Source: Treponema sp. (GTDB lineage Bacteria > Spirochaetota > Spirochaetia > Treponematales > Breznakiellaceae). Taken from it: a DNA stretch of 19,170 nt. The first letter of the stretch is position 1. The number at the start of each line of letters is the position of its first letter. Positions 8,436 to 15,272 of the stretch are shown piece after piece. The notes beneath the pieces were generated by a model. That model was given only the letters and a program-made list of their open reading frames with translations, was not told where the DNA came from and searched no databases. Location of the stretch: positions 1 through 19,170 of the forward strand of contig JAITLF010000262.1 in NCBI GenBank assembly GCA_031278025.1. Direction: 5' to 3'. Both the position numbers and the translations under genes were made by a program.

Positions 8436-9380
8436 ATGAATTTAAGAAGGCAGATTCTTCCCCCCGGATGGTATCCCCATTCCGCTGAAAAAGTACGGAG
8501 GTTCTTGGAACCAAGGTTCATAGAATCAGGATTCCCGAAACACGGTTCTCAGGATGCCATCGCCGTTATTGCCCCTCATGCGGGATGGTATTATTCGGGC
8601 CGTATTGCCGCGCGGGCATTACGGGCCTTGAAAACCGACGCCGACACGGTGATCGTCATAGGCGGACACCTCCCCGCCGGGACGCCGCCCCTCTTTGCCG
8701 AAGAAGACGGCGTTGTTACCCCCCTGGGGAACCTGGAAATAGACCGGGAATTCAGGGACAAGCTTTGGAAAGAATTAGGCGGCAAGCCGGATCGATATTA
8801 CGATAATACCGTCGAGGTCATGCTGCCCATGGTTAAGTTCTACTTCCCCCAATCCCGTTTGATCTGGCTGCGGCTTGGCGCGGAAATTCAATCGTATGCA
8901 GTGGGAAAGACTATCGCGGCAATCGGCGCTTCCCTGGAACGGCGGTTCGTACTCATAGGTTCCACCGATTTGACCCATTACGGGCTTAACTACGATTTTG
9001 CTCCCCGGGGCATGGGGCGGAAAGCCCTGGAATGGATGAAAACGGTGAACGACGCCGCCTTCATACAGGCGGTGATGTCCGGTGACGAGGACGAAACCTT
9101 CCGCCGGGCCGAGACAGATCGGTCCTCCTGTTCCATCGGGGCGGTCCTCGCCTGCATGGGGTATGCTCATGCCCTGGCCGCCTCCGATGCGACCCTCCTC
9201 TCCTACGGGACCAGCGTTGATTCGGCGGACGCCTCCTTTGAAGGAGCCGTCCAGGGCCGAGCTGCTTTGGGCGGCGGCTCGTCGGAGGAAGACGTTTCCC
9301 CCGATGTAGACAAGGTTCCCGACTCCTTTGTAGGCTACGCCGCTATGTCCTGGTATCCCGGTGAGGAAGCAGGCGGTTAA
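8436..9380 (+). CDS. MEMO1 family protein (AmmeMemoRadiSam system protein B type)
   Basis: Clear member of the Memo family, related in fold to class III extradiol dioxygenases. Diagnostic segments are APHAGWYYSG (46-55), VIGGHLP (74-80), GSTDLTHYG (175-183) and TDRSSCSIGAVLACMGYA (227-244). His48, His78, Asp178, His181 and Cys232 line up with the metal/active-site residues known in human MEMO1, so the site appears intact. The length of 314 residues is normal. In many bacteria this gene sits with an AMMECR1 gene and a radical SAM gene; neither is next to it here. Its start has AAAGGA six bases upstream. It converges with the DUF115 operon, the two stops sharing the bases TTAA at 9377-9380. Exact biochemical role unknown. 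Confidence 0.88.
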   Translation: MNLRRQILPPGWYPHSAEKVRRFLEPRFIESGFPKHGSQDAIAVIAPHAGWYYSGRIAARALRALKTDADTVIVIGGHLPAGTPPLFAEEDGVVTPLGNLEIDREFRDKLWKELGGKPDRYYDNTVEVMLPMVKFYFPQSRLIWLRLGAEIQSYAVGKTIAAIGASLERRFVLIGSTDLTHYGLNYDFAPRGMGRKALEWMKTVNDAAFIQAVMSGDEDETFRRAETDRSSCSIGAVLACMGYAHALAASDATLLSYGTSVDSADASFEGAVQGRAALGGGSSEEDVSPDVDKVPDSFVGYAAMSWYPGEEAGG

Positions 9381-11077
9381 GCCCGATTCAGCACGGCGTC
9401 CAGTTCTTTGAGGGAATAGTCCCTCACCGCTTCCAGTGCTTCCGGGGCGGTCAATCCGCTACGGCGGTGTTGTACGGCGGCCCAGGCGGGGAGCAGGGTC
9501 GTCAGGATACGGCTTTCCTGTTCCGTACATTTCCTCAGAAAATTCGTTATGTTTTGGCCGGACCGGGGGAGCGCGGCGATTTCCCTTCGGTAGGTTTCCA
9601 GAAATTCCCCGGCGCGTGTTGCCGCCTGACCTGCGGCAAAGAGGCGCATGGCTTCCCGGCGTTTCGGCGTTTTTTCCGGCAAGCGGATAGGAGACCCCAG
9701 GCCGGGGACGGCGGTTAGCATCGCGTCCTGGGAGCGGGCTTTTGCCTCAAGCTTTTCGCGGTAGCTTTGCAGGAGGGCCGTTGCGTAATACCAGGAGCCG
9801 TCTTCCCGTTGTTCGCTCTTAGTCAGGGGGGACCGGTAGAGGAAGGCCGATGCCTGGGCTTCCTGAGGGGCGAGCCGGGTTTGCCGCACTTCAAAATAAG
9901 GATGAATATAGGTTCCCCGTGCATAGGTCTGCCCCAAAGGGTAGGAAAAATCGGCCCCGTACAGTTCGATTTCCTCCGCCCCCAGGTATTCCGCCAGGGA
10001 CACAGCCGCGTAGGTTACGTTGACTCCCGACGTGTCTATGTTCGGAAAAGACCGCCAGTACCGGGAGATATACCGGGCCAGGGGATGTCCGCCTGAGAAA
10101 AACCGAGGATTCCCGCTCAGGGCGGCCAGGAGGGGAGGGCTTGCCAGGTCCATAAACAGGGGAATGTCCTGGGGAAGGCCCGCCATAAAATGGCGGTAAC
10201 TGATGTGCTGGCAGTCAATCGAGACTACCGCGCCCGGCATAAGGCCCCGGTTCAGCAGGGCGGGGAGGGCGGTGTCCGTGGCGATGACAAACCGGGACTC
10301 CCGTTTTCCCTCAAGACGGGGAATCTGTATGTCCAGGGAAGGTCCCGCAGCGCAAACGGCTGCCCGGCGTACCGGCGGCAACGGACGCTCCGGCCCTTCC
10401 GCCTGAAAAAGGTTCCTGATGATGTTGGAAAACCACCGGGTCCCAAAATACGCCTGTACCGAATAATCCCTGGCAAGCCGGTCTATGGCGGTTTTTACCG
10501 CGTCTGCGGCCCGGCCAAAGTTGAAAGGATCGAGTTCCGTCCTGATCCGCAGGGGGATGACCCTGATGCCCCCGTAGAGCGCAGGCTGGTAGGTTTTCAG
10601 GATGAAGGCTTCCAGAATTTCGGGATCCGGATCCACAAGGAGGTGGAACCGGGGGTCCTGAAAGATATGAATGTACGATCTGGAAGCGAGTAATTCCGCG
10701 ACCCCGTGTATATCGTAATCCACCACCAGAAGACGGTGGATGTCCTCCCTTTCCAGGGCGGCCTGGGCATGGTAGCCGCCGCCCAGACCCATGAGGACCA
10801 GGTACCCTTCGGCGGCGCGGGTGGATTGAGATCCTTCCGGAACCCGCAGGGCTGCGGTTATGATCCGTTCCCCCTCGCGGCAGGGGTCCATCAGGGAGTG
10901 GAGGGGATGAGCCGCTCCGGAAGGGTCCGTCAGGGCGGGTACCATCTCGCCGGAGCGGGCATCAAGGAACCGGTACCGCCCCCTGGTTGTTTCCGCCCCT
11001 GACAGCCGGGAACACAGGGCGGGGTCCTTCTGCGACAGGGCAAGCAGGTTCCGCTCAAAGAAGTATTGTTTATTCAT
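9377..11077 (-). CDS. DUF115/MptE-like motility-associated factor protein B
   Basis: Large DUF115 (MAF_flag10, 6-hydroxymethylpterin diphosphokinase MptE-like) protein, a family tied to glycosylation of flagellins and other surface structures in motile bacteria. From the ATG at 11077 it has 566 residues: a SAM/Rossmann-like N-terminal part with LMGLGGGYHAQAAL (from about 95), GTRWFSNI (212-219), then the DUF115 core CAAGPSLD (242-249), ATDTALPALL, SIDCQH (286-291) and GADFSYPLG (374-382). A longer reading frame starting with TTG at 11104 would add nine residues coded entirely by an inserted element, so 11077 is the native start. Its ribosome site was separated from it by that insertion (see 11080-11262). 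It is last in a four-gene operon and paralogous to the gene upstream. Confidence 0.85.
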   Translation of the reverse strand: MNKQYFFERNLLALSQKDPALCSRLSGAETTRGRYRFLDARSGEMVPALTDPSGAAHPLHSLMDPCREGERIITAALRVPEGSQSTRAAEGYLVLMGLGGGYHAQAALEREDIHRLLVVDYDIHGVAELLASRSYIHIFQDPRFHLLVDPDPEILEAFILKTYQPALYGGIRVIPLRIRTELDPFNFGRAADAVKTAIDRLARDYSVQAYFGTRWFSNIIRNLFQAEGPERPLPPVRRAAVCAAGPSLDIQIPRLEGKRESRFVIATDTALPALLNRGLMPGAVVSIDCQHISYRHFMAGLPQDIPLFMDLASPPLLAALSGNPRFFSGGHPLARYISRYWRSFPNIDTSGVNVTYAAVSLAEYLGAEEIELYGADFSYPLGQTYARGTYIHPYFEVRQTRLAPQEAQASAFLYRSPLTKSEQREDGSWYYATALLQSYREKLEAKARSQDAMLTAVPGLGSPIRLPEKTPKRREAMRLFAAGQAATRAGEFLETYRREIAALPRSGQNITNFLRKCTEQESRILTTLLPAWAAVQHRRSGLTAPEALEAVRDYSLKELDAVLNRA

Positions 11078-11264
11078 CTGAGGCTGTTCCAAAACCCACG
11101 CCAACGTTCAGAAGCCCGGCTATCCCGCTCAGAAACGCCGTATTCACGTATAAGAATGGTCCAGCCATAATCGTGAATGGTCTGGTTTTATACGTAAATT
11201 CGCCGTTTCTGAGTGGGAATACCGGGGAGATGAACTCAAGGCGCGGGTTTTGGAACAGCCTCAT
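11070..11264 (-). CDS. 64-aa relay ORF created by the inserted element
   Basis: This ORF starts with ATG directly after the TAG of DUF115 gene A, with GGAGG eight bases upstream at the end of gene A. It reads through all 183 bases of the inserted element without a stop and ends in TAA inside the first codons of gene B, overlapping its ATG by eight bases. Its ATG is formed by the duplicated target bases (AGAT) joined to the terminal G of the element. The product (MRLFQNPRLEFISPV...) resembles nothing I know and probably matters only as a translated bridge that reinitiates at gene B. Confidence 0.5.
   Translation of the reverse strand: MRLFQNPRLEFISPVFPLRNGEFTYKTRPFTIMAGPFLYVNTAFLSGIAGLLNVGVGFGTASDE
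11080..11262. mobile_element. MITE-like palindromic insertion, 183 bp, with target duplication
   Basis: Both ends carry GAGGCTGTTCCAAAACCC as perfect 18-bp inverted repeats; homology continues inward with gaps (CTCAGAAACG-CG, ACGTATAA) almost to the centre, so the whole element can fold back. The flanks repeat ATCT (11076-11079 and 11263-11266; alignment allows up to TCATCT), consistent with a target-site duplication. There is no transposase inside, so it must have been moved in trans. The end sequence is reminiscent of IS ends of the 'GAGGCTGT..CAAAA' kind, from memory only. It sits exactly between stop and start codons of two paralogous genes. Confidence 0.8.
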
Positions 11265-12752
11265 CTATCTCTCCTCCCCGGCGGCCAGCGCTTTGATTTC
11301 TTTGAGGAGCCGTGCCGCCGAGACCTCCACCCCGCCGGGGAGGAGAAGCGGCGCTAATTCCCGGCGGATCGCCTCAGCCGGCCCGGCTTTTTCCAGCAGG
11401 CAGGAGAGGACCCGGACCGCGTCATCAGAGACCGCCTGAGTCCCCGGAACCTGCGGGACCTTGCGTGATTTCACCTGCGGCGAGGAGCCTTGCCACGGGG
11501 AAGGTTGCGCGGGAAGGGCATCGAAAACAGGGTTGTTTTTTCCCAGGGAGCGGATGCGGCCAGGATAGGCCGCAAGCTGGCCGCCAAACCATTCGGCATA
11601 CACCCGGAGGCTCCCGAAAGCGGATAGTTGCCCGGCCCGGACAAAGGCTTGAGCGTACCGGGGATCAAGACGGTTCGCCCGGTCCTCCTGGAAACGATCC
11701 AATGCGTAGGGCCGGACGTGGGTCTTGATGTCCCTGTTGGAAAGGTCCATACCGGCCAGGAAGACGCCACCCTCTGTGCAGCGGAGGGCCAGATCCAGGG
11801 CAGTGGCGGTAACCGTCCCCCGCTGGGGAAGGGCCAGATGGGGAATGCCCAGCTTTTCCAATACCGCCTCTTGCCAGAGGCTGCCGTCGCTTAAAGGGAG
11901 GACGGGGAAACCGCCGCATTGACCGGGGAGGACGGCGGTGAGGGAGGCCGCAAGGAAAAAGGGCCGGCCCGATGCGCACCGTATCGCCTCCCAAAGATGG
12001 AAGTGCGCCCAGCCGCCGCCGTCGGTACTGATCGTTACATCCGGCAGTACGCCTCCTGCCGTAAGGGCGGGGACCGAGGAGGAGGAGGCCAGGACCGTCG
12101 CCCCTTCGCGTTGCATGTCCGCGATGACCGGGAGAACCTCTTCCAGGCCGGGTCCCGCGCCGGTAACAATCCAGGGACCTGAACCGGGGTCTATGCCAAA
12201 GAAAACCCGGAGGATGCCGAGGTTCCTCAGGAAATTTCTAAACCAGCGGCGGCCAAAACCTTTGACGGTACGGGCGTTGGCGTCCATCCGGCGTAAAAAG
12301 GTTACGGTTTTTTCCAGAAGGTCTTTATAGGCCGCCCCATAAGCCGCCAGCGCTGGCCGCCATTCCACGATTTTTACCGCCCCTATCCCGATGTCGGGGA
12401 TCTCCCGCTCCAGAAATTCCCCGCATGAAAGCCCCGATCCGGGAAACCACCGGGCCGTGGTTTCCGGGGCTTCACCGGGAAACCGGGCAAAGAAGTCCGA
12501 AACATGGAGGGCGATGACCTTTGCCTGGGGGAAAAGCCGCCTGAGTACCGGGATGATATAGCCTAAACCCGGTTCAATCAGGATGAAGAACCCTATTGTT
12601 TCACTCAATGCGCCCTTGCTCAATGCGCCAAAATCGAAGGCGTTGATATATTTTTCCGCTTCCCCGGCGGGATCATACCGGGAATGCAGGAATTTTCCGC
12701 CGGCAAAAACGGTGGGAAGGCCGGTTCCCGCCCTGGCGATCCGTTCAATCAT
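11265..12752 (-). CDS. DUF115/MptE-like motility-associated factor protein A
   Basis: A second DUF115-family protein, about 495 residues from the ATG at 12752. It shares the layout of its downstream paralog: FILIEPGLGYIIPVL (from about 56), GRRWFRNF (167-174), the DUF115 core VTGAGPGLEEVLP (from 196), STDGGGWAHF (from 242) and a late GVFLAGMDLSNRD segment. Divergence from protein B is high, so the two likely have distinct roles. The frame could extend to a TTG at 12806, but the ATG at 12752 overlaps the previous gene by eight bases, the usual coupling pattern here. The 3' end carries GGGAGGAG before the TAG, once the ribosome site of gene B. Confidence 0.82.
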   Translation of the reverse strand: MIERIARAGTGLPTVFAGGKFLHSRYDPAGEAEKYINAFDFGALSKGALSETIGFFILIEPGLGYIIPVLRRLFPQAKVIALHVSDFFARFPGEAPETTARWFPGSGLSCGEFLEREIPDIGIGAVKIVEWRPALAAYGAAYKDLLEKTVTFLRRMDANARTVKGFGRRWFRNFLRNLGILRVFFGIDPGSGPWIVTGAGPGLEEVLPVIADMQREGATVLASSSSVPALTAGGVLPDVTISTDGGGWAHFHLWEAIRCASGRPFFLAASLTAVLPGQCGGFPVLPLSDGSLWQEAVLEKLGIPHLALPQRGTVTATALDLALRCTEGGVFLAGMDLSNRDIKTHVRPYALDRFQEDRANRLDPRYAQAFVRAGQLSAFGSLRVYAEWFGGQLAAYPGRIRSLGKNNPVFDALPAQPSPWQGSSPQVKSRKVPQVPGTQAVSDDAVRVLSCLLEKAGPAEAIRRELAPLLLPGGVEVSAARLLKEIKALAAGEER

Positions 12753-13161
12753 CGTACCGGCAAGACGGTATCCGGGAGAGGACCTCTTCCGGAGATTCGG
12801 CTTCAAAACTTGTAAGCGCCCGGGCCCGCAGGGTCCTGGTCAGCCGGTGTGTTAAGAGTTCCCGGTCCAGGGTTTTGGAAAAAAGGATCAGGATGTTTTT
12901 TGAAGGCAAACAGATGACTTTGCCGAAAGACGATGCTGCGGAAACCGCCGCGGCGAAAAATTGTTTAAGGGCCGCTTCTCCGGGGTAGTTCGGCGGCTCC
13001 AGGACGATTCCCTGGCACGATGAATGGTGAAGCCAATAGGCCCGAATCATCTCCCGAACCGCCTCCATACCGGCAGGCTCTTCGGGATGTGAGGCGGGAA
13101 CCTGAGCGCCGGCGGTCCGTTCCGGAGGATTGGCAGTACTAGCCTTGCCCAGGAGTCCCAT
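12745..13161 (-). CDS. Small conserved-looking hypothetical, 138 aa
   Basis: No family recognised. The first 30 residues are Ala/Pro-rich and probably disordered. The rest looks like a compact alpha/beta domain: MIRAYWLHHSSCQGIVLEPP, then ALKQFFAAAVSAASSFGKVI, a hydrophobic strand KNILILFS (90s) and a helix DRELLTHRLTRTLRA. Its ATG overlaps the stop of the acidic scaffold gene by one base (TAATG) and its stop overlaps DUF115 gene A by eight, so it is translated in step with both. Given the context it may be an adaptor between scaffold and DUF115 proteins (inference). Confidence 0.65.
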   Translation of the reverse strand: MGLLGKASTANPPERTAGAQVPASHPEEPAGMEAVREMIRAYWLHHSSCQGIVLEPPNYPGEAALKQFFAAAVSAASSFGKVICLPSKNILILFSKTLDRELLTHRLTRTLRARALTSFEAESPEEVLSRIPSCRYDD

Positions 13162-15272
13162 TATGCTAAACCCAGATCCTCGAACAGTTTTTTATAGGTG
13201 TCAAAATATTCAGATTTGGCGAATTCTTCTATCTTGTTTTCCGGAAGAGACTCCAGAAGCTGATCCATGTAAGAAAGTACGCTCCGCAGTTCAAGCCTGA
13301 TGCCCGACGGGATGGCCGACACATCCACCGCCGGGTGCACGTTCCCATCCGCTTTATTGGGGCTTGCCGCGGACGGCGGTGAAATCCCGGCTTTGTCTTC
13401 TTCCGCCGGAATCGCCGCCGGCGCCTCCGCAGCCGGGACGCCATCCTCTTCCTCCCCGGCAGGCGTTTTTTCGGTTCCGGGCCCTTCGGGAACCGGCTCC
13501 AGGCCGGCGGAACCATCCTCCGCAGAATCCCCAGCCGCAGACTCCTCTGCCGCAAAGTCCGCAAAGTCCTCAATCGTAAAATCCGGGAAATCCTCAATTC
13601 CCAGTTCCAGCATATCTTCCGGCGCGGAGAGATCGGCGGGGGAATCATCACCCGTTTCGGGAAGCCCGCCGTTTAGACTGGTTTGTTCCCCCGCCGGGCT
13701 ATCCCCGGATTCTATGAGGAAACCATCGGGAATAGCCTGATCATAGGCGCCGTCCTCCAGGGTATCCCCGATATGCTCCGGCGCTTCCTCTGCAGGCGGC
13801 AGGCCGGGGAGGCTGTCAAGGGAAATACCGGCGGTATTCGCGAAATCGTCGTCCGGGGGGAACGCACCGGATAATTCACCGGAAAGACCTTCGGGCGAGC
13901 CCCCTGAATCAGCCACCGGTAATTCGAGTGCCCCGCCGGCATCCGTGCCATCCTCCCCGCTGCCCGGCGCCGCCAGAGGTTCTTCAAAATCAATGAAGGG
14001 GTCTTCAATGGAAGGTTCTTCGATAGCCGCGTCTTCAAATTCAAGGGGAGGTTCTTCGATGGCCGCGTCTTCAAAATCAATGAAAGGCTCCCCGATAGCC
14101 GCGTCTTCAAAATCAAAGGGAGGCTCCCCGATAACCGCGTCTTCAAAATCAAAGGAAGAAGTATCGTCAAAAGGAAGATTCAATGAAGGGTCTTCCAACA
14201 GAAAGTCTATATCCTCCGGCGCCGGCGTCATGGGTTCCACCCCGGTTTCCCTCAGCATTTCCAATTCGGGAGAAGCCGCCATTTCGGGCGGCGCTTCCTG
14301 CTCAGGGGGGATTTCCCTGGTTTCGGCGGGAAAGATGAAGGAGTCGTCAGTCTCCGGCAGGTCCTCTATAGCCGCGTCGATACCCGAAAAGAAGGCATCT
14401 TCCGATTCTAAAAGCGGTTCCGAAAAACCGGGGGCCTTCGGACGTTCGGTATCCGTTCCGGCACGGTCTGCGGGTTGGGGATCAACGGCTTCTTCCTCCT
14501 CAGCTGCCGCGGCCTCCGCGGGAAAATCCGCCGTGGTGAGAAAGGAGTTGAGTTCATCCCCGGTAAGGGCGATTTTTTCGTCTTCCGCTTCGTCAAAAAA
14601 GCCGCCGCCGCCGGTTTGTTCCTCCGCCTCCGCCGCTTCCGCCGCCGGATGTTTGCTCCGGGAGAGTTCCCGCTTCAAACTGGACAGCTCGCCCTTTATG
14701 GACGAGAGTTCCTCCACGATTTTCATCAGGAGCTGGGTGGAAAGATCCACGGCATTCCCCGGTTCCTGCTCCCCAATTTCCGGGAAAGGGGAGGGCGGGG
14801 CGGTTTCATACTCCGCCGCAGGGAGAAAATCCACCATGGAAAGAGCGGAAAGGCCATCCCCCTCCGCCGCGGCGTCCGCCCATTCACTGACCGGCGCCGG
14901 TTCCCCCGTTTCGGCTTCACCACCCAAAGGCTCCATCTTCACGTACTCTGTTTCCGTATCGGCGTCCATAAAATCCAGGCCGTCGTTGAACAAGGCGCCG
15001 TCCGCCGACGACAGGCCGAAGTCTGCCGCAGCCGCCATATCCGCCGGATTTTCGGAAAGCCACGGGTCCGCGTCGATTGCGTTAATATCCGGCGCATCAC
15101 CGGCCAGTTCCGGGGAGAAATCCTCCTCCGGTTTCGCAGCCTCCCGGGTATCCGTGGTTACCGGTGAAAGATCCTGGGGTTCGCTTTTTACCCAAACCCC
15201 GTATTCCTCAAGCTCTTCTGACGATCCGATTATGCTGCGATCGTACTGTGAAGGATCTTTGTTACTTGCCAT
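13161..15272 (-). CDS. Large acidic scaffold-like protein with conserved ends, 703 aa
   Basis: Extremely Glu/Asp/Ala/Pro-rich and mostly low-complexity, so probably disordered. The non-repetitive islands look functional: an N-terminal segment IIGSSEELEEYGVWVKSEPQ (14-33), a predicted amphipathic coiled coil at about 177-206 (TQLLMKIVEELSSIKGELSS onward), and a well-composed C-terminus (about 655-703) with GIRLELRSVLSYMDQLLESL and EEFAKSEYFDTYKKLFEDLG. I recall similar end segments in spirochaete hypotheticals. Residues 374-421 are a 12-residue repeat. There is no signal peptide or membrane segment, so it is cytoplasmic. It is the first gene of the DUF115 operon, with a G-rich run before the ATG; an organising or localising role is inferred. 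The long plus-strand frame opposite it is an antisense shadow. Confidence 0.75.
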   Translation of the reverse strand: MASNKDPSQYDRSIIGSSEELEEYGVWVKSEPQDLSPVTTDTREAAKPEEDFSPELAGDAPDINAIDADPWLSENPADMAAAADFGLSSADGALFNDGLDFMDADTETEYVKMEPLGGEAETGEPAPVSEWADAAAEGDGLSALSMVDFLPAAEYETAPPSPFPEIGEQEPGNAVDLSTQLLMKIVEELSSIKGELSSLKRELSRSKHPAAEAAEAEEQTGGGGFFDEAEDEKIALTGDELNSFLTTADFPAEAAAAEEEEAVDPQPADRAGTDTERPKAPGFSEPLLESEDAFFSGIDAAIEDLPETDDSFIFPAETREIPPEQEAPPEMAASPELEMLRETGVEPMTPAPEDIDFLLEDPSLNLPFDDTSSFDFEDAVIGEPPFDFEDAAIGEPFIDFEDAAIEEPPLEFEDAAIEEPSIEDPFIDFEEPLAAPGSGEDGTDAGGALELPVADSGGSPEGLSGELSGAFPPDDDFANTAGISLDSLPGLPPAEEAPEHIGDTLEDGAYDQAIPDGFLIESGDSPAGEQTSLNGGLPETGDDSPADLSAPEDMLELGIEDFPDFTIEDFADFAAEESAAGDSAEDGSAGLEPVPEGPGTEKTPAGEEEDGVPAAEAPAAIPAEEDKAGISPPSAASPNKADGNVHPAVDVSAIPSGIRLELRSVLSYMDQLLESLPENKIEEFAKSEYFDTYKKLFEDLGLA
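14010..14153 (-). repeat. 36-bp in-frame tandem repeat (four units) in the scaffold gene
   Basis: Four consecutive 12-residue units (consensus FDFEDAAIGEPP) are encoded by four 36-bp units with few differences; a partial copy (FIDFEEP) lies just downstream. High DNA identity indicates recent slippage or recombination, and copy number is likely to vary between strains without breaking the frame. Confidence 0.85.

Follow-up and report, generated by a model that had tools for sequence, protein, structure and literature searches.

The 19,170-nt contig JAITLF010000262.1 of a Treponema species (assembly GCA_031278025.1), analysed over its whole length and hereafter called the window, carries a small palindromic insertion between two co-directional MptE-like genes, gene A and gene B. 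In a genus-mate the stop codon of gene A directly precedes the start codon of gene B; in the window this junction is split by the element, and an open reading frame (ORF) of 64 codons crosses the insertion from end to end. On balance we favour an explanation in which ribosomes that finish gene A would restart on the element, pass through it and re-initiate at gene B, and in which selection on gene B would have kept this arrangement. We refer to the 64-codon frame as the relay ORF.

The split junction of genes A and B

Read directly on the minus strand, the junction is ...GGGGAGGAGAGATAG|ATGAGGCTG... (Table 1). The GGAGG is located 8 nt 5' of a new ATG (11264-11262, minus strand), which consists of the AT of the duplicated target and the terminal G of the element. 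The relay ORF that begins here ends at a TAA formed by nt 6-8 of gene B and thus overlaps this gene by 8 nt. This origin of the start codon, the length of the frame and the place of its stop had been proposed in an earlier reading of the window from its letters alone (the sequence-only reading), and all three hold. The stop of gene A and the start of gene B are now 187 nt apart, which is beyond the overlap or few-nucleotide distance of coupled pairs. The two upstream junctions of the operon overlap by 1 nt (TAATG at 13161) and by 8 nt (ATGATTGA at 12752), so the proposed match in size between the relay overlap and the others of the operon applies to the latter and not to the former.

Table 1. 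Features of the A/B junction in the window, and three in-gene copies of the element family in other loci
Feature	Position	Strand	Remarks
Gene A, MptE-like (PF01973)	11265-12752	minus	start set by 8-nt overlap and orthologues
Stop codon TAG of gene A	11267-11265	minus	direct read
Gene B, MptE-like (PF01973)	9377-11077	minus	5' end ATGAATAA; intact
138-amino-acid gene upstream of gene A	12745-13161	minus	8-nt overlap with gene A
GGAGG Shine-Dalgarno sequence	11273-11277	minus	once that of gene B, now precedes the relay ORF
Relay ORF, 64 codons	11070-11264	minus	starts on element boundary; crosses whole element
Palindromic non-autonomous MITE-like element, 183 bp	11080-11262		ends GAGGCTGTTCCAAAACC
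Terminal inverted repeat, arm adjoining gene B	11080-11102	plus	
Terminal inverted repeat, arm adjoining gene A	11240-11262	minus	
Target site duplication, copy 1, ATCT	11076-11079		includes AT of gene B's ATG
Target site duplication, copy 2, ATCT	11263-11266		gives AT of relay ATG
In-gene copy L117/L237, +62 codons	L237 2892-3073		five codons into gene whose TTG overlaps upstream stop; compared with L239
In-gene copy L173/L249, +51 codons	L249 1350-1498		at signal-peptide start; compared with L250, L254
In-gene copy L180/L369, +45 codons			in protein tail; compared with L370, L372, L373

Relatives were gathered by a contig scan with gene B, of which the best 80 of 96 were used; the records are labelled Treponema, Spirochaetaceae, Spirochaetia or Spirochaetes. 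Judging from the isolate names these are probably termite-gut bacteria, and the spirochete of the window probably lived in a termite gut as well. The genus-mate L003 has an empty site, GGAGGAGATATAG|ATGAATAAACAA, with TAG directly followed by ATG. Hence the empty site that the sequence-only reading had suggested to look for in related genomes exists, and it has the very form which that reading had deduced by removing the element. L003 and the window share 95% amino-acid identity in gene B and differ by 1 base in the last 40 bases before the site. Since L003 has an empty site, the insertion arose in the lineage of the window.

In 69 of the 80 loci gene A precedes gene B, and the other 11 lack a detectable gene A. 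The gap between the two genes is at most 4 nt in all 69, i.e. stop and start are near each other or overlap, as in coupled pairs. It amounts to -8 nt in 53 loci, -4 in 3, -1 in 3, 0 in 1 (L003), +1 in 2, +4 in 1, and -11, -20, -23 or -77 in 6; an insertion at this junction was found in none of the 69. The ancestral junction is thus an overlap of 8 nt, with the form ATGGATAA. The derived TAG/ATG form is common to the window and L003, both of which keep ATGAATAA. As gene A overlaps gene B by 8 nt in 53 of the 69 relatives, the stop of the relay ORF falls on the old coupling position; it coincides with that of gene A in L001 (GATGAATAA) and L002 (GGTGAATAG).

In E. coli, according to the excerpted account in PMC10666635, -4, -1 and -8 are the commonest gene overlaps, reinitiation needs no more of the upstream gene than its final 15 nt, and a gap of +38 nt almost abolished it in reporters. 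With their overlaps of -8, the A/B junction of the ancestor and the junction of relay ORF and gene B resemble the termination-reinitiation pairs of that excerpt (-8, -4, -1 nt; PMC10666635), with the difference that in the window a mobile element supplies the upstream ORF.

The free energies of the Shine-Dalgarno (SD) duplexes, computed with an assumed anti-SD tail, are -11.0 for the relay start, the same value as for gene B in L003, and -3.3 for gene B in the window. The median for gene B in 54 relatives (L003 and the 53 with the 8-nt overlap) is -8.3. Nine of these 54 have an SD as weak as -3.3 or weaker, and since all nine show the 8-nt overlap, an overlap combined with a weak SD is an arrangement that occurs in nature.

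These features are compatible with the following course of events. Once the lineage of the window had separated from that of L003, a small, palindromic and non-autonomous transposon inserted into the TAG/ATG junction of two translationally coupled genes, and the resulting 187 nt would be too far for direct termination-reinitiation. Ribosomes ending gene A may then re-start at the boundary ATG using the old GGAGG; restart and passage through the element would be possible because this copy has an open frame. The element would be read as a by-product of 64 residues, ending at the TAA 8 nt inside gene B, and gene B would be re-initiated at this stop. The relay would be a fortunate side effect, maintained because purifying selection acts on gene B, rather than a designed device.

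A palindromic family in treponemes

The element appears to belong to a widespread palindromic family in these treponemes that resembles miniature inverted-repeat transposable elements (MITEs). Like these it has terminal inverted repeats (TIRs), the terminal arms of 24 nt being 96% complementary (11079-11102 / 11240-11263); the inner arms of 48 nt are 77% complementary. A 261-nt stretch folds at -136.7 kcal/mol compared with -74.4 for shuffles (z -12.6), and the element and its target duplication clearly exceed chance. A 16-nt TIR query with at most two mismatches gave 164 matches in the genus-mate G001 versus 5 control matches, and the exact TIR is present in 97 of 195 genomes of the bacterial family, with 0 control matches. 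The most exact matches among the 195 genomes, 174, were counted in G070.

From 368 loci plus the window we delimited 196 palindromes, 25 of which measure at least 80 bp (long copies; this cut was picked after the fact). The set is a sample comprising the G001 places among 100 listed, most listed places of nine other genomes, and few or none elsewhere. A perfect target duplication of 4 nt flanks 51 of the 196 copies, versus 2, 1 and 1 copies with duplications of 3, 5 and 6 nt, and with at most one mismatch the number rises to 86 of 196. A constant 4-nt target duplication is thus the rule of the family and, together with the empty site of L003, a feature shared with MITEs. Copies are mostly intergenic: 10 lie inside genes, while 41 rows are near a stop (at most 30 nt beyond) and 27 rows near a start (at most 30 nt before). 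Gene starts and the copy census rely on a home-made codon-usage gene caller, not on curated annotation.

A second copy of the 183-bp interior was not found in the genomes compared, among which the window's own genome is not included. A similarity of the interior to L090 1501-1552 (52 nt of a coding gene, 77%, E 4e-4, in 1 of 195 genomes) was taken as chance. Nor did a parent transposase, or a copy carrying one, come to light: none of the 17 loci around PF01609/PF13751 matches in G001, many of which are cut by contig ends, has a TIR on both sides, and no obvious transposase, as judged by eye, lies between TIR pairs 600-3000 bp apart. The plasmid collection and Rfam yielded no match to the element. 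Searches of open-licence papers by the initial 15 letters of the TIR, or by treponema/MITE/termite context, did not turn up this family in print. A family-wide coding frame was rejected, as 18 of 72 frames are open (window element and 11 long G001 copies) and these are spread over all phases. On the plus strand a 150-amino-acid open frame (10987-11439) likewise crosses the element of the window and is probably a by-product of the palindrome.

A MITE named Chunjie in Geobacter uraniireducens is said, by the title of the paper on it, to lie within an operon without disturbing the operon structure. According to the excerpted account in PMC10969869, Chunjie disrupts one of two operons for phosphate uptake. 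The same excerpt covers the Rickettsia palindromic elements (RPE), which are likewise small palindromes tolerated in translated sequence, often in frame (PMC10969869). In contrast to RPE, the treponeme copies are mostly intergenic, the window copy forms a separate ORF between genes instead of a fusion, and the host belongs to another phylum. Unlike RPE, the family has no recognizable conserved peptide: no homologue of the 64-amino-acid ORF was found, and its interior is not common to other copies. The comparison is by description, sequence similarity having been looked for via the Rfam and plasmid searches alone. The QMITE elements of Coxiella burnetii are also MITEs that give coding sequence, in one instance by extending a C-terminus in frame (PMC5896051); as far as the excerpt of that account goes, it mentions no relay between coupled genes, and the target duplications of QMITE differ in length (PMC5896051). 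No paper linking miniature inverted-repeat elements with translational coupling was found in the open-licence literature. The proposed relay is a combination of known things, namely MITE insertion in translated sequence and termination-reinitiation at -8.

Other copies at junctions and inside genes

Twelve of the 196 copies are placed at co-directional junctions by our gene caller: the window, L237, L249, L328, L366 and seven without a fitting ORF. The sequence-only reading had proposed to examine whether other copies sit at TAG/ATG junctions with the same frame open. No further TAG/ATG relay exists among the 12, but L328 and L366 are relay-like, and L237 and L249 are in frame. The latter two, albeit listed at junctions, are insertions just past the downstream start that are read into the downstream gene. 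L328 (463-521, 59 bp) and L366 (1532-1570, 39 bp) each have an ORF whose start overlaps the upstream stop by 1 nt and which spans the element; it ends 17 nt inside the downstream start in L328 and 1 nt before it in L366. The ORF of L328 exists (23 codons) even without the element, and at the empty site of L366 a frame that begins with a GTG on the upstream stop would continue into an ABC-ATPase-like gene in phase with it. In L299 a single frame is open as far as a TGA that overlaps the next ATG, with no start codon near the upstream stop.

Under a like definition, relay-like ORFs occur in 2 of 108 element-free co-directional gaps of 60-260 nt and at 3 of 10 element junctions (p 0.004), or 2 of 9 when the window is left out (p 0.03). 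For gaps of 60-120 nt the numbers are 2 of 6 with an element versus 2 of 45 without (p 0.06). This excess, barely above background and tested after the fact, is suggestive only.

Three of the long copies are inserted in frame within genes, and each of these genes has element-free orthologues (Table 1); the in-frame insertion known from RPE is thus seen in these and not in the window copy. We take the gene of L237 to be lytic-transglycosylase-like, that of L249 TPR-like and that of L369 RnfD-like, as recognized by eye. L237 was put inside its gene by means of the orthologue in L239; the gene caller had missed the true start. The open frame of the L249 gene encodes 715 amino acids compared with 656-670 in ten other clear orthologues, and G030 gave a weak partial match. 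As a control, 126 frames taken from 21 copies were compared, and a gene would stay open in 11 of them (12.5% of frames at a 60-bp cut, 4% at a 100-bp cut). Three of three in-frame copies would then arise by chance at about 7e-4, for a set picked after the fact.

One may go further and suppose that the whole family is translation-friendly. Its G ends would make a start codon of any target ending in AT, GT or TT, and time and again copies would persist where translation takes place, either as linkers that are themselves coding (L237, L249, L369) or as relays by stop and restart (the window, perhaps L328 and L366). We consider this broader view unlikely.

Alternatives to the relay and further repeats

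How surprising is the open frame? The sequence-only reading held that the length of the element, its terminal G and the open frame all had to fit, which overstates the coincidence. The relay start codon is nearly automatic, with G at 47 of 50 ends in the 25 long copies and at 355 of 392 in all 196. Any exit frame is acceptable, because ATGAATAA contains stops in two frames (TGA at nt 2-4, TAA at nt 6-8) and the third frame fuses with gene B. A fine-tuned element length was therefore rejected, and it is only the open frame that must fit. Of versions of the element drawn from a first-order Markov model, 10% are open (one frame tested), and 31 of 126 frames are open in 21 other long copies. When the 24 other long copies were placed at the junction in both orientations, gene B stays coupled and a start codon is present in 10 of 48 placements, of which 4 give a relay and 6 a fusion. 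The number is 11 of 48 if no start codon is demanded, and 7 of 42 once the three in-gene copies are set aside.

Several points weigh against the relay. Its open frame is only modestly surprising, with a chance expectation of about 0.1-0.25, and is not strongly beyond chance. Ribosomes on the relay ORF would have to pass a hairpin with a predicted -116 kcal/mol. At L233, where a 153-bp copy occupies a co-directional junction with an empty gap of 27 nt, there are stops in all three frames. Frame-keeping is not general, since all eight shorter in-gene copies break the frame (L011, L089, L135, L153, L158, L229, L316, L335). A search of about 5.8 billion proteins, which depends on shared short words, returned one candidate for the 64-amino-acid product, namely itself; as no relatives were found, a conservation argument is not possible. 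The insertion may also be young, in which case gene B could appear intact though poorly expressed.

One alternative is an ordinary insertion that broke the coupling and left gene B poorly translated and the open frame a coincidence without function. An open frame would then be expected in roughly 10-25% of cases, and ribosomes could be halted or delayed by the large hairpin. Gene B moreover carries 11 amino-acid changes on the window branch against 2 in L003 (nonsynonymous/synonymous 11/13 versus 2/8). The window branch, however, is also longer for gene A (16 changes versus 6) and most other genes compared, and because of this no clear relaxation is apparent in gene B. The ratio of nonsynonymous to synonymous rates between the window and L003 is 0.22 for gene B and 0.33 for gene A. 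Relaxed selection on gene B was rejected for want of a clear signal, as gene B does not clearly stand out. Gene B, furthermore, is a full, intact ORF in the window. We regard broken coupling as rather unlikely.

Gene B could also be reached without translation of the element. Split ribosome sites that are brought together by looping-out are known from gene 25 of phage T4. By analogy, the palindrome would fold and bring the GGAGG close to the ATG of gene B. The predicted hairpin indeed pairs both element ends at its base, leaving 12 nt between GGAGG and ATG once the stem is excluded; yet ribosomes coming from gene A would first meet the well-spaced ATG of the relay ORF, and the minimum-free-energy structure of the wider stretch pairs the GGAGG region with the 5' end of gene B, which makes this scenario improbable. 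Much the same holds for an independent start of gene B from the end of the element, either with the GGAA before its ATG or at an in-frame TTG at 11104 that would lengthen gene B by 9 codons. The family end TTTTGGAACAGCCTC does leave a weak SD, but its -3.3 is far weaker than the median of the relatives. A promoter of its own for gene B inside the element had been named by the sequence-only reading as an observation that would speak against a relay; the single promoter-like match in 10980-11400 lies on the plus strand and none on the strand of the genes. A start of this kind seems just as improbable as looping-out.

In the relay, our preferred reading, the insertion was tolerated because translation can pass through the element, and gene B is probably still reached by ribosomes doing so. 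All anatomical parts of a relay are present, at a junction that was coupled in the ancestor. The simplest history is one of survivorship, in which, among many insertions, those letting translation pass persist. If the relay ORF is translated, the window represents a natural experiment in how an operon survives the insertion of a mobile element, with the coupling carried over 187 nt by a disposable, transposon-made ORF. Together with the empty-site genus-mate and the 53 relatives with the overlap, it would then make it possible to test directly how coupling is selected for, what a translated hairpin costs and which insertions survive.

The window contains further repeats. A long inverted repeat between genes (1998-2127; 26-nt arms, 92%, 78 nt apart) is devoid of the TIR of the element family. 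Four tandem copies of an approximately 21-bp TTTTTGCGC..GGAAAAGTGTTT unit (2334-2418) are located upstream of a gene cluster, which we take, by eye, to be ABC-transporter-like. Finally, a five-copy repeat with 36-bp spacing (13969-14184) lies inside a gene for 703 amino acids and corresponds to acidic repeats of the FEDAAI type.

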